Assembly (NCBI GenBank): GCA_030428385.1
Contig: JAUIDY010000066.1
Location: 1-34,366, forward strand
DNA from: Rhodothermia bacterium
GTDB lineage: Bacteria; Bacteroidota; Rhodothermia; Rhodothermales; JAAAOL01
DNA: 34,366 nucleotides
Direction of reading: 5' to 3'
Below the pieces are notes generated by a model. That model saw nothing but the letters and a program-made list of their open reading frames with translations, was not told the origin of the DNA and searched no databases. A program made the position numbers and the translations under genes. Within the stretch, counting starts at the first letter, position 1. Every line of letters starts with the position of its first letter. This document shows positions 23,671-34,225 of this stretch, piece by piece.

Positions 23671-25701
23671 CTAGCTTCCATTCCGAACCGGGAACCCCAT
23701 CTGCGCCCACACCAAAATGCCCTCATCAATGATGGCGGTGTTCTCGAATCCATGTCGTTTCAGCGTGCTTTGCACGCGCCCTGATGCAGCGTGCGGACAC
23801 GCACAATAGATGACAATGGGAGTCCCATCGTTTGGAATGTCGTCGATGAAGTTCTCCGGGTCCTCGTAGTAGGGCACTGGGAAGGAGCCCGGAATATGCA
23901 TTTGACGCCATGCCACTTCAGACCGGGCATCCATGATGATCATGCGCAGGCTGTCCTGCAAGGCTTGGTTCACCTGGGCGGAAGAGACATATTTGCCCTC
24001 TCTCAATTGGAAAACAGGTGCCTCGCTGTCGGGGTTGAGCACGTATTCCGCTGGTGTAGGGATCGACACGGTAATAGGCTCAGGGATGTCCCAGCCAGAG
24101 GCGCGGCTCCGCAAGAAGGCCGTCACGTCGTCCATGTCTTGACTGCTCAAACTATCTTTGAAGGCCATCATGGGCGTTCCATCGCGCCCTTCGGCGATGG
24201 CATACCGAAGGAAGTGATCGGTAGCGGTGGCAAGCAGCATGGGGTTCCCTAAGGCCGGGGCAGAGATCCCCTCTCCGTTTTCACCATGACAAACCGCACA
24301 GCTTTTTTCATAAACAGCAGCACCCTGGGCAATAGCGCCCAGCACCGGCTCTCTGGAGAGTGTGACCGGTTCTTCGACCTCCGCCATCTCGTACAAATAC
24401 TGTAGCAGCAATTCGATTTCGATATACTCCAAAGGCCCGCCCTGCGCATCTAAATACCCCGCCATCGCGGTATTGGCCCTTCCATATTGGATGGTATACC
24501 TCATAAAATTGGTATTCTGACTGGTGGCCAGCAGGGAATGCGAACGCAGCGAAGGCGCATTATCCGCCGCGTATCCCTCTCGGTTATCCCCATGGCACAG
24601 CGCACAATATTTCGTGTATAGCTCTCCGGCATACGCAATGGCCAGCGTGTCTAGCGGCTCCGCCATCGGGTTGAGCGTTCGGGCCATGACCCCTTGCGCT
24701 TCAGGCTCTTGCACAAACTCCAGTTGCACGCCAAAGGCGTAGTCCGGCAAGATGCTCAGCTGTTCATCTGTCTGCGTCAAAGCAGCGGAGGGCAGTTCCT
24801 CCTCCAGATACCGATACGTTGAGTCCAGATCTGCTACCTCAAACCTTAATGCAAACACGCCCTCGCCTCTGCGCGACAGAAAGTCGTTCAACGATGGATC
24901 AGCCTCCGCAGCGACTACGTGGAGCTCTTGGTGACGGGAAAGCCGATATCTGGCGGTCGTATCATGGTGCTCAATGACCTCAAATCCCAATTTTCCGAAT
25001 TCCTCATGGGCAGCTTCGAGGTCTCGAACGACGATTCGGATCGCCGCTATCCCCACTACGCCGTTGGGGTGTTTATTGAAGTTTCTGTTATAGGTGTAAT
25101 AGGTTCGCCAAGCATCGTTCGCCTCTGCGTAATTCAATCCGACATTTTCGATAAACCGGGGAAGATGGGCAGGGGGAGCAGCGGTATTGAAGTCAAGGCT
25201 CCTGCGAGTCGGGTCGCCATCATCCCGAGACCAGCCCTCTGGTGCTTGAGCGCTGCTGCGGTACGATCGAACCGAATCCACCTGGTACCCGCTTGCGGTA
25301 AGCGCCATCGCCGTGGAATCAACAGAAGAACTGGACAGCGCAAAAAGGCGAACCCCTTCGCCGGAGGCCAGAAAGGTGCGGATGAACGCAGGGGTAGAAT
25401 GCTTCAGTGAGTCATCTACGGCTAATAGCTCGAAGGCGGACATGTCGCCAAAAGCTATAGATGTGGTCATCGACCCCTCAAAAACCCCTGGCTCAGCGCT
25501 TCGATTAATGTTGAAGCCCAGGGTGTCGCTGAAGTAATTACGGGCCGCTTCTAGATCATTGACCATTAACGTGGCACTGTTAATGCCAATGCCTTGGCCG
25601 AGTAAAAAGGGCTTTTCAGACTCCTCTAACGGGCACCCGAGGAGCAAAATGCCCGACAAAAGTAAAATCGAAAGCAGTGATACGATCTTGTTGAGTTCCA
25701 T
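23671..25701 (-). CDS. Lipoprotein fusing two VOC domains, two cytochrome c domains and a rhodanese
   Basis: A 676-aa envelope protein. The N-terminus is a lipoprotein signal with LLLGC (Cys23). Two VOC/glyoxalase-like domains follow, at about 38-170 (LMVNDLEAARNYFSDTLGF) and 215-340 (IRIVVRDLEAAHEEFGKLGF). Two haem c domains follow: CALCH with C366, C369, H370, and CAVCH with C468, C471, H472. Candidate Met ligands are in NTAMAGY and TPMMAFKD. The C-terminus (about 580-676) is a rhodanese with the CxCP-type loop YCACPHAASGR (C633, C635). I use ATG 25701, which has AGGA at 8-base spacing; ATG 25722 would add seven residues. It is divergent from the DUF2231-like gene. The combination suggests redox or sulfur chemistry at the membrane surface, reaction unknown. 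Confidence 0.85.
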   Translation of the reverse strand: MELNKIVSLLSILLLSGILLLGCPLEESEKPFLLGQGIGINSATLMVNDLEAARNYFSDTLGFNINRSAEPGVFEGSMTTSIAFGDMSAFELLAVDDSLKHSTPAFIRTFLASGEGVRLFALSSSSVDSTAMALTASGYQVDSVRSYRSSAQAPEGWSRDDGDPTRRSLDFNTAAPPAHLPRFIENVGLNYAEANDAWRTYYTYNRNFNKHPNGVVGIAAIRIVVRDLEAAHEEFGKLGFEVIEHHDTTARYRLSRHQELHVVAAEADPSLNDFLSRRGEGVFALRFEVADLDSTYRYLEEELPSAALTQTDEQLSILPDYAFGVQLEFVQEPEAQGVMARTLNPMAEPLDTLAIAYAGELYTKYCALCHGDNREGYAADNAPSLRSHSLLATSQNTNFMRYTIQYGRANTAMAGYLDAQGGPLEYIEIELLLQYLYEMAEVEEPVTLSREPVLGAIAQGAAVYEKSCAVCHGENGEGISAPALGNPMLLATATDHFLRYAIAEGRDGTPMMAFKDSLSSQDMDDVTAFLRSRASGWDIPEPITVSIPTPAEYVLNPDSEAPVFQLREGKYVSSAQVNQALQDSLRMIIMDARSEVAWRQMHIPGSFPVPYYEDPENFIDDIPNDGTPIVIYCACPHAASGRVQSTLKRHGFENTAIIDEGILVWAQMGFPVRNGS

Positions 25702-25828
25702 GAGAACGGTCCTAGATGACATAGATAAAGCGTTGAAAAGACAAGCTTAATAACGTAGCGAAAGATGGGGGTGAGGCGTCCCATGGGGCTACGACCTCAC
25801 CGACAACAAGCTCCAGATTATTTAGTTC

Positions 25829-30370: not shown

Positions 30371-33300
30371 TTATTTCAGCAACACCATCTGGCCTGTACG
30401 GACGTGCTTCTTCCCGCTTGTCCAGGCGGTAATCCGATAGAAATAGGCTCCAGACGCCAGCGGCAAATCCTGAAGCTCAATCTTCTGGTTCACACCGGGA
30501 GCCATCCGCTTGGCTGGCATCCCATAAACCTGTTGGCCTCGAACGTCGAAGACGTCCACCGTGACATCAGCGGTTGCGGCAAGATCGAAGGTCAGCGTGG
30601 TGTGTTTGGAGAAAGGATTGGGGTAGTTGCCGTGTAAAACAAAGTCCTCATTCGGAAGCTCGGCTTCCTCGGTGGAAACCGGGATCCCGACATTTCCGCT
30701 GGCATCAAGGGATAACAGCACCAGCGCTGAGTCGGGACCGGCAGCGACTAGGGCCAGGGCCTCCCCAGCGGCGTCTGTCCAGTCGAATTGAAACACGTTT
30801 TGTCCAGCCACTTTGCCCATCGCATCGGTGCTCACTTCCATGTTGTAGAGACCGGGCGCGAGGGAGAAGTAGGCCGTTGCGGAATCGGCTGGCAGGTTTT
30901 CGGTAATGGTTTGCACCGGATTGCCAGTGTCGTCGAGGATGCGCAGGCTTAAGGGGGCGTCGGTAAGGGTGGTGTTGGCGATGAAAAACTCCACCTGCGA
31001 GGCGTCCTCGGCTTCAGTACGCGGGTCGGGTTTGACCAGGATTTTGCTGCTGTCGGCATCCACTTCCGTCAGGAACAGCGCAATGCGGGAGGGGAAAGCA
31101 GGCGTACCGTTTTCATCTTGATACACCAAATCAAGCGCAATCGAGTCAACGGGGTTGGACCTGTCCGGGTCGGCACCGTCCGTAATTTCAACCAGCGGAA
31201 ACGCCTGACCGATTGGAAAATCCTGGAAGGTAATCACATCGCCCACCTCCAGGTCATTGGCCACCAACACACTGTCGAGGTACACATCAATGGTTTCAGG
31301 AAGGCGTGTCGCTTTATCTCCTATATGCAGATCTTCTAGAGATAATATGCGGCCACGAAATATGCTGCCCTCGACGCTGGCATATGTCCCTGTCAATTCA
31401 ATATCAGTACGGGCAACAACTCCTTCATCTGAATTCACATACGCACTATTAAACAGATTTGAGCTTCTTGTGTAGAATACAAGATCGACGACAAAGGAGT
31501 CTTGCGAAGCAAGAGACGGTAAGTCCCATATAATGCTACCAGTATCATCTCTAAGAAAATCTGTAGGTGGGAGATAAAAACCTGATTCCGAATCACTAAA
31601 TATTCGTAAATCCCTTGTTGAAAATACATCACCTATTTTCACATTGGTTAAAGGTATCTCTCCCGTATTGGTTACAACGATTCGGAATGCAACCTGATCT
31701 CCAACCGTAAATTCGTCGACGAAGGCTGTCTTCTTAATCTCCACCATCGGCCTTGGATCTTCCTCGATAACCATGACCGCTCCAGAAAAGAAACCGGCTT
31801 GTGTGGTCTGGATGGCATTGTCCGTCGTGGTCAGGCTTGCGCTGTTTACCCCCAGACCCAGGTAGCAAAACAACGGCGCAGAATCGACGGCATTTGTATT
31901 CGCATTCTCAAGCGCAACGACTACTGGGCAGGTGTCCTCTGCTATTAACTGACCCGCTCCATCATCCGTCAGCGTCGATTTGCAAACGGTGGTTGTCAGT
32001 TGTTCGCCGAAGTCGCCTGCTAATGGATTAAGCGGCACCAACACGTCCAGGGTCTCTCCTAAACTATATCCTGAAATGGCATCCAAAAACTCGTCGTTGG
32101 CTGTGCCATAATAACTCAGGTAGGCCACCTCCATGGTTTCCAGGTTGCAGGCCGCCACCATGCCGTCGCTCAGGCCTCCCGCATACTCCGACTGGAACGC
32201 GCCTGCTGTCGTCGGAATGCCGCCATCCGTAATCCCTGACGCAATAACATAGTCACCGACCACCTCTACATCCGTAAAGCTATCACGACCGGGGCCGTCT
32301 GCGACACACCTGCCACTAATTGAATATTCAATATCATCATTTCCAATACTAAGGGCGATTTTTTGCAGTATCGCCGCGAATTCCAAATTTTCATTTACCA
32401 GATCGTCCGATTCCGTACTACCTGCGATATACAGGTTACCCTCCTGATCTACATCGAACCCACCTCCAAACTCGCTATCATTGCCCCCCAGATACGTGGA
32501 GTAGAGCAGCGTACTGCCATCGCTTGTTAACCTGGTGAGGATGAAATCGCTGTCGCCCTCTCGTGTCGATTGAAGGGCATTCGCGGTGGTTGGGTAATCA
32601 GGGGAACGGGAATAGCCAGCCAACCAGAGATCGCCCTCTGGTGCCAGATCGATGCCACCGGAAGAATACTCGCGGTCACTACCACCGAGGTAGGTCGAAA
32701 ATACCAACGCACCGTTCGCATCAAGTTTGGCAACCAGCAGATCTTGATCGCCCGCGATTTCGGCCTGCAAAGGATTTAGGGTGGGAAAATCACTCGAAAG
32801 CGTGCGGCCTAAGACATAGATGTTGTCCTCCTCATCCAGCACCAGCGCCTCTGCCCGGTCAGGCTCGCTACCTCCAAGGAAGGTTGAATAGAGGATCGCG
32901 CCCGTCGTGGGATCAAAGCGCATAATGAAGAAATCGTCGCCGCCAGCGGGTGCCCCCTGGGCGGCATTTTGGGTGGGAAAATCGGCGGAGTTGGTTCTGC
33001 CTCCCACAAACACATCACCGCTGCTTGAAACCACCAGGTCATTTACGCTGTCCGTGCCCGACCCGCCCAGGTACGAGGCAAAGGTGATCTCCGGGTCGAT
33101 GATGAGTGGAATCGCCGGGTCATACGCACCCACTTCAAATCCCACGGTGCCCGCTTCCAGACGAAACGCACCACTGACGGGTATGCGCTGCCCATTGATC
33201 GTCTGAAACAGCACCGGGGCCGACTCCACCAGTTCGCCCAGCACCGTCTGCGCCACCAGCGCCCCGTCATCGCGAAGGCGAAGTGATTCCACCCCGTCCA

Positions 33301-33850
33301 ACTGCATCTGAATCAACGACGGATCGGCTCCTGGGGCCACATGGAATTCCCGTTTCAGGCGTTCTTGCTGGCCCGTGTACATCATATCGATGCCGGGATA
33401 GAGATTCCGGTACTGAATGCCCTCGAACGTCGGCAAACCTGTTCGCCAGTCGGCGGCATCGGAACCCCGGTAGTAATTAACCACCCCCGGCAACGGTGCC
33501 ATCGGCTCAATGGCTGGCTCCGGCTGGGCATGGAGGAAGCGCAACGTCACCTCCGAGGCGATGTTTGGCTGATCCTCGGCGGTATGCGTGCGTCTGAACC
33601 GAATGGCCTGGGGGCCGAACAAAACCGTGTGTCCACCACCTTCGACATGAAAACGCACGGCGTCCTCCACCTGCCCTTGGTTTTCGATAAACAAAAGCGA
33701 CGAGGCCGGCTGGATAGCCGGTTGGACAGGCTGGTTAACCGGCATCACAGGGATGGACGGAGAAGCAGGTTGTTGGACAGCATCAGAGGTCAGATAGAGA
33801 AGGGCAGCAAGGGCGACCACCAAACAAACAGACGCGAAAAAACGACGCAT
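30371..33850 (-). CDS. Large secreted SBBP-repeat protein with type IX sorting domain
   Basis: A 1159-aa surface or secreted protein. A Sec signal starts MRRFFASVCLVVALAALLY; ATG 33850 is chosen because the longer frame to 33931 buries it. Domains: an N-terminal module with FIENQGQVEDAVRFH (about 50-225), as often found before SBBP repeats; SBBP beta-propeller-like repeats (about 250-480) with the recurring YSTYLGG/STFLGGS; a less regular part (510-690); a DUF11-like Ig domain with VAFRIVVTNTGEIPLTNV (about 695-820); a DUF4397-like part with IDVYLDSVLV (about 850-1000); and a sorting domain from NYPNPF (about 1075) to the end, with VDVFDVRGQ and GAYFYRI. Type IX machinery would move it across the outer membrane. 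Ligand unknown. Confidence 0.9.
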   Translation of the reverse strand: MRRFFASVCLVVALAALLYLTSDAVQQPASPSIPVMPVNQPVQPAIQPASSLLFIENQGQVEDAVRFHVEGGGHTVLFGPQAIRFRRTHTAEDQPNIASEVTLRFLHAQPEPAIEPMAPLPGVVNYYRGSDAADWRTGLPTFEGIQYRNLYPGIDMMYTGQQERLKREFHVAPGADPSLIQMQLDGVESLRLRDDGALVAQTVLGELVESAPVLFQTINGQRIPVSGAFRLEAGTVGFEVGAYDPAIPLIIDPEITFASYLGGSGTDSVNDLVVSSSGDVFVGGRTNSADFPTQNAAQGAPAGGDDFFIMRFDPTTGAILYSTFLGGSEPDRAEALVLDEEDNIYVLGRTLSSDFPTLNPLQAEIAGDQDLLVAKLDANGALVFSTYLGGSDREYSSGGIDLAPEGDLWLAGYSRSPDYPTTANALQSTREGDSDFILTRLTSDGSTLLYSTYLGGNDSEFGGGFDVDQEGNLYIAGSTESDDLVNENLEFAAILQKIALSIGNDDIEYSISGRCVADGPGRDSFTDVEVVGDYVIASGITDGGIPTTAGAFQSEYAGGLSDGMVAACNLETMEVAYLSYYGTANDEFLDAISGYSLGETLDVLVPLNPLAGDFGEQLTTTVCKSTLTDDGAGQLIAEDTCPVVVALENANTNAVDSAPLFCYLGLGVNSASLTTTDNAIQTTQAGFFSGAVMVIEEDPRPMVEIKKTAFVDEFTVGDQVAFRIVVTNTGEIPLTNVKIGDVFSTRDLRIFSDSESGFYLPPTDFLRDDTGSIIWDLPSLASQDSFVVDLVFYTRSSNLFNSAYVNSDEGVVARTDIELTGTYASVEGSIFRGRILSLEDLHIGDKATRLPETIDVYLDSVLVANDLEVGDVITFQDFPIGQAFPLVEITDGADPDRSNPVDSIALDLVYQDENGTPAFPSRIALFLTEVDADSSKILVKPDPRTEAEDASQVEFFIANTTLTDAPLSLRILDDTGNPVQTITENLPADSATAYFSLAPGLYNMEVSTDAMGKVAGQNVFQFDWTDAAGEALALVAAGPDSALVLLSLDASGNVGIPVSTEEAELPNEDFVLHGNYPNPFSKHTTLTFDLAATADVTVDVFDVRGQQVYGMPAKRMAPGVNQKIELQDLPLASGAYFYRITAWTSGKKHVRTGQMVLLK

Positions 33851-34225
33851 ACACAAAACCCCAATAGGTTTATTCGGGCAGAGAACAGCAAGAGAAAGAC
33901 GCAAAACTGAATGACAGAAGGCTACTTTCATCCAGCGGGTCGATAGGCTTAGTAAGAATACGGTTAAGGAGCCCCTTTTACAAGCAAGCGGAGCCTGTCA
34001 GCGAAATCCTAAATCTGGGGCCTGGAGAACGACGCTTGCTTGCGCCCTCTCTGCTCCCTTCCACTTTAGCCCGGCACGGATTGGCACCATGGGGCTTTGT
34101 GAGGACCTCTCCCTTGCCCCATCCTCAACCGCCTATTATTTTCGCAACGATTGTATTATCATGGCGTTGCCCCCCGTTCTAGCAGATGATTGTCTCCTAA
34201 CCATTGGATTGTATCGTTTAGCCTT
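33851..34225. other. Divergent intergenic region before the SBBP protein and the peptide transporter
   Basis: About 375 bases holding the promoters of two divergent genes. I could not place a clear -33/-7 pair for either. No small gene, RNA or repeat is evident. Confidence 0.4.

Follow-up and report, generated by a model that had tools for sequence, protein, structure and literature searches.

The gene described here, on the minus strand at positions 23671-25701 of the window (the whole stretch of 34,366 nucleotides that was analysed), encodes a lipoprotein in which two VOC domains, two cytochrome c domains and a rhodanese domain follow one another in a single chain, and this five-domain architecture is real, rare and conserved. 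Membership of the gene in a zinc-starvation regulon is well supported in relatives of the window genome, and the protein probably helps these bacteria to cope with too little zinc, as a redox component not described before. This link provides the first biological context for the family and was missed by an earlier, sequence-only reading of the window. Domains and zinc context together narrow the reaction, and we tentatively propose, with confidence somewhat short of even, that the protein acts during zinc starvation as a lipid-anchored envelope thiol/persulfide (sulfur) oxidoreductase whose electrons would be drained through its two haems.

The coding frame is a single minus-strand ORF without internal stop (23671-25722, 683 aa); the strand is absent from the sequence-only reading. 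Translation almost certainly starts at Met8 (25701) rather than at 25722, as judged from the ortholog alignment, in which L034, L041 and other orthologs start exactly there; this matches the start coordinate given earlier and yields a protein of 676 aa. Residue numbers refer to the 683-aa ORF, in which the previously highlighted Cys633 becomes Cys640. By its sequence the protein is a bacterial lipoprotein with a signal peptide (25633-25701) that ends in the lipobox LLGC at Cys30, the signal being judged by the hydrophobic stretch and the alignment of this cysteine. There follow VOC domain 1 (residues 46-196, 25135-25587; PF13468/PF00903) and VOC domain 2 (residues 222-340, 24703-25059; PF13669/PF00903 and Foldseek), the latter directly preceded by an HPNG motif (218-221). 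The cytochrome c domains (residues 359-451, 24370-24648, and 463-541, 24100-24336) carry CALCH (373-377) with the putative axial Met420 and CAVCH (475-479) with the putative axial Met518, and the rhodanese domain (residues 577-680, 23683-23994) contains the active-site loop C640-A-C642-P-H-A-A-S-x-R (23776-23805). All these features lie on the minus strand. In profile searches every domain scored above its Pfam gathering score (Glyoxalase_3 at residues 51-242, 6.6e-14; Glyoxalase in two stretches corresponding to VOC1 and VOC2, 7.1e-12; Cytochrom_C in two stretches, 2.5e-16; Rhodanese PF00581 at residues 586-674, 1.1e-12), and sequence matches in the PDB were to CcoP-type cytochromes, cytochromes c552/c6 and rhodaneses. 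The domain assignments of the sequence-only reading were thus borne out, and the failure of profile searches to support the VOC or rhodanese domains, which it had named as evidence against itself, did not occur. Profile searches of the immediate neighbours (a metallophosphatase, an LMW phosphatase, an aquaporin and an AP_endonuc_2 family protein) gave no hint to function. Elsewhere in the window, a DUF7948/SBBP protein of 1186 aa is encoded at positions 30371-33931; its C-terminal sorting domain is of the type IX secretion type.

The five-domain order recurs in 16 full-length orthologs besides the window protein, at 51-74% identity. They come from an isolate and MAGs, and their hosts comprise Roseivirga, other Cyclobacteriaceae/Flammeovirgaceae, Algoriphagus sediminis, Balneolaceae and two relatives from the window genome's own order (G008 and G030); one further ortholog (L040) is cut by a contig end. 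Since these independent proteins share one order, the fusion is not a product of chance or assembly, and an assembly or frameshift artefact, to which we assign practically no probability, is excluded; the uninterrupted five-domain frame reported earlier is therefore genuine. A decayed copy of the gene, in pieces and with a stop, is present in G796 (L066:8676-9469).

The family is sparsely distributed, with the gene in about 5 of 394 genomes in a sample of the phylum and an intact copy in 6 of 390 genomes from the order of a Roseivirga genome. Searches of the 394 genomes with the two halves of the protein detected no half-architecture of either the cytochrome-rhodanese or the VOC-cytochrome type, and what they returned were five-domain proteins at full length, matches of the single-domain type and one tandem VOC that stands alone. 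A distant stand-alone tandem-VOC lipoprotein (L195:1231-2367, G1040), 27% identical to the VOC unit and retaining the first-strand His (GLDHV), is possibly related to the ancestor of the N-terminal half. The sequence-only reading had considered the combination to be without known precedent, and could have been contradicted by an architecture that was common and already characterised; it is rare, and the papers searched contained no description of the protein. It had also suggested Rhodothermales genomes as the place to search for the same architecture; two same-order relatives do carry it, and the family extends to Cytophagales and Balneolaceae. In a maximum-likelihood tree the window copy groups with Cytophagales and Balneolaceae copies, apart from those of its own order in G008 and G030, with 100/100 support for the separating branch; horizontal transfer of the whole five-domain gene is therefore probable. 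The GC3 of the window gene (0.62) is only slightly below that of most neighbours (0.63-0.73). A plasmid collection gave no match.

Invariant in 17 orthologs are the lipobox Cys30, both CxxCH motifs (CALCH and CAVCH, as noticed earlier) and the candidate axial ligands Met420 and Met518, so that each class-I c-type cytochrome domain has a CxxCH with a downstream Met and hence a putative haem site. The same holds for C640, C642, P643, H644, S647, D598, R600, W605 and E667 of the rhodanese domain, including the CxCP loop. The residues after the lipobox, where an outer-surface export signal would lie, are acidic in some orthologs but not in others. Compared with the haem and rhodanese sites, the VOC half is less well conserved. 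In an alignment to methylmalonyl-CoA epimerase, the first-strand His of VOC1 (position 49) is replaced by S/N/G/Q/R/D in the orthologs, the second His (position 126) by L/M with His in only 2 of 17 (L036 and L037), and the first His of VOC2 (position 227) by A/G/S/V; the window protein has His at none of the three. Because these ligands are replaced, the VOC domains do not contain ordinary VOC metal sites, which weakens the earlier suggestion that they handle metal-chelated substrates as metal enzymes; most simply, the pair would be a binding platform. The VOC fold itself is well supported: a model of the VOC unit (pLDDT 89.8, pTM 0.89) matched the tandem-VOC structure 3p8a (TM 0.60/0.72) as well as HPPD and hydroxymandelate synthase (HMS; TM about 0.6) in Foldseek, while the full-length model (pLDDT 61) is too poor to judge the geometry between the haems and Cys640.

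The zinc connection emerged from the surroundings of the orthologs, whose neighbours are mostly unrelated from locus to locus, several of them being zinc genes. Of the 18 ortholog loci, 9 have the gene immediately downstream of the palindrome ATGCAAY-N3-RTTGCAT or within or beside operons of zinc-island genes, namely those for ZigA/COG0523, DUF1826, a TonB receptor, a FecCD importer, MerC and GTP cyclohydrolase I. In G008 (L046), a TonB receptor, DUF1826, a COG0523/ZigA-type protein, COG0523, the five-domain protein and YeiB/DUF418 are encoded in that order on one strand as a tight operon with intergenic gaps of 49, 21, 63, 12 and -40 bp, followed by Peripla_BP_2, FecCD and ABC genes. L037 contains a ZigA-like COG0523 gene, three Peripla_BP_2-type genes, FecCD and ABC genes, the five-domain gene and then phosphatases. 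In L062 a two-mismatch box is followed by MerC, then GTP cyclohydrolase I and, in third place, the five-domain gene; a COG0523 gene and one for an LCIB-type carbonic anhydrase lie a short way upstream. L040, too, has homologs of these MerC and cyclohydrolase genes close to the five-domain gene, with a box of one mismatch ahead of them. This composition agrees with that of the Zur regulons of proteobacteria, for which Haas et al. (PMC2770081) describe COG0523, DUF1826, outer-membrane receptors and zinc-independent paralogs. Phosphatases of the purple acid, e(P4) and 5'-nucleotidase types also occur near the five-domain gene (L037:12039-16827; L039:6409-9777; L040:1655-2992), and a PhoX gene stands behind a perfect box at L088:4810-6522. 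The phosphatases at the box or beside the five-domain gene may belong to the zinc response.

The palindrome precedes the start codon by 29-80 bp in L033 and L039 (no mismatch), L041 and L061 (one) and L035 (two). This amounts to a direct box in 5 of 17 orthologs, four of them at one mismatch or fewer where shuffling predicts 0.007, a count that is partly circular in that the box was first noticed in these promoters, and its zinc meaning rests on other genes. In the cultured Algoriphagus sediminis C2-7 the five-domain gene stands behind a perfect box, ATGCAACAAAATTGCAT. No box was found upstream of L034, L036, L038, L047, L048 or L063-L065. The Cytophagales host genomes contain 5-17 copies of the palindrome each, compared with 0-4 matches to a reversed control, and loci fetched by protein similarity held 9 sites in 334 kb, all of them intergenic, against 0-1 in shuffles. 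Among 65 box-adjacent genes scanned were 8 for ABC ATPases, 7 for MerC and 6 of the Fur family, together with ZIP and PhoX genes; Fur-family regulators (L089, L098), DUF418, DUF1826 and COG0523 operons, a TonB receptor and ABC importers also lie beside the box. Because the palindrome also stands in front of genes for Fur-family regulators, for MerC, for a ZIP transporter and for PhoX, we regard it as very likely a Zur box, and probably that of Cytophagales; the papers searched described no Zur box for Bacteroidota and no such box for Cytophagales. The box-linked regulator is a putative Zur, named so by context; L089:6228-6644 has Zur as its best NCBIfam match at 45.7 bits against a cut-off of 167, and the other box-linked Fur-family proteins match PerR/Fur models, all below cut-off. 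The box accompanies the Fur-family gene, MerC, DUF1826, DUF418, PhoX and ABC/TonB genes at L089:6053-9063, L098:5358-6008 and L088:2631-10837.

It should be noted that the window gene has no box between -250 and +40, the best match there having four mismatches, and that the three one-mismatch matches per strand in its genome do not lie at this gene. No other palindrome common to the window promoter and the zinc genes of G000 and G008 was convincing. The window genome does carry a zinc island on contig C61 (L165:1-19901), with ZigA (616 against a curated cut-off of 600), a second COG0523 gene, importer parts, a TonB-receptor-like protein and genes related to the box-linked ABC genes; a single Fur-family protein was found in this genome, and it resembles Fur, not Zur. 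Zinc control of the window copy is what we infer from the relatives.

For an exported lipoprotein that combines a CxC rhodanese with two His/Met haems, oxidation of a thiol, a persulfide or sulfide would be a fitting activity. We envisage that the protein is exported, lipid-anchored and made during zinc starvation, and that its VOC pair would serve as a metal-free platform for a small ligand, such as a thiol or a sulfur-containing chelator. Cys640 of the rhodanese could take up sulfane sulfur from the bound ligand or form a mixed disulfide with it, Cys642 would resolve this intermediate, and the respiratory chain would receive the electrons by way of both haems. Zinc is bound strongly by thiolates and by sulfide; for this reason their oxidation at the envelope would free bound Zn2+, which co-encoded TonB/FecCD/ZIP/MerC systems could import, and such a release would account for the zinc-starvation control. 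The Zur regulons known so far are made up of importers, of metal chaperones and of zinc-free enzymes that stand in for zinc enzymes. A haem/cysteine envelope oxidoreductase under zinc control, if the proposal holds, would be a new kind of Zur regulon component, and would link the supply of zinc with respiration and with sulfur chemistry. A more specific version, which we consider improbable, is that the lipoprotein scavenges zinc oxidatively, oxidising thiolate or sulfide ligands to make zinc available for uptake, with the respiratory chain as sink; if true, this would be the equivalent for zinc of redox-assisted iron uptake.

The same zinc context might be read differently, with haem and cysteine chemistry replacing a zinc-dependent envelope enzyme in the manner of the zinc-independent paralogs of Zur regulons. 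PhoX, purple acid phosphatase, e(P4) and 5'-nucleotidase, families that are not known as PhoA-type zinc enzymes, are box-linked or clustered, as are GTP cyclohydrolase I and the LCIB-type carbonic anhydrase, and these neighbours would suit a zinc-sparing role, as would the lost VOC ligands. A substitute for a core enzyme should, however, be commoner than this rare gene, and no zinc enzyme whose reaction would obviously match is known to us, which leaves this explanation unlikely, if worth keeping in mind. Periplasmic oxidation of sulfide, thiosulfate or thiols, for detoxification or energy, with the zinc context incidental or reflecting sulfide-zinc chemistry, seems to us a distant prospect. 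A rhodanese with two c-haems would be a natural composition for it, the zinc signal is absent in half of the orthologs, and the five-domain gene is followed by a DsrE-family gene in L036 and by a gamma-glutamyltranspeptidase gene in L033; yet no Sox-, Sqr- or Tsd-like neighbour was seen among the genes scanned, and five direct boxes and three zinc operons can hardly be incidental. More doubtful still is a role in metallophore handling, in which TonB/FecCD systems would import a zinc chelate for the VOC pair to bind and the cytochrome-rhodanese part would modify the chelator. VOC proteins without a catalytic metal can be binding proteins, those of the bleomycin-resistance type bind metal chelates and could serve as a model, and a TonB receptor and FecCD importers are co-operonic in L046 and L037, but no chelator-synthesis genes were recognised and the importer is not a neighbour in most orthologs.

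With Glyoxalase_3 (PF13468) tandem-VOC proteins such as 3p8a and with HPPD/hydroxymandelate synthase, the best fold matches of its VOC unit, the five-domain protein shares two VOC domains per chain and an HPNG before the second; it differs from them in being fused to cytochromes and a rhodanese and in lacking His metal ligands, and it has in common with the VOC metalloenzymes glyoxalase I, MMCE and HPPD the fold without those ligands. Its pair of CxxCH domains, in both of which a Met is conserved, recalls diheme class-I cytochromes of the CcoP and QcrC type (best PDB match CcoP 3mk7); the similarity to CcoP is at domain level only (NCBIfam ccoP 51 bits, cut-off 180), and, unlike CcoP and QcrC, the protein is lipid-anchored and carries VOC and rhodanese domains. 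As in single-domain rhodaneses, there is a rhodanese profile with conserved D598-A-R600, W605 and an active-site-loop Cys, whereas the loop reads CACPHAAS instead of the canonical C-x-x-G-x-R/S and the domain is fused to a diheme cytochrome. Finally, although the five-domain protein is not among the Zur regulon members named in PMC2770081, where no rhodanese is mentioned, its gene resembles those of the Zur regulon islands described there in that, in relatives, it belongs to operons of this kind or has the same box upstream.
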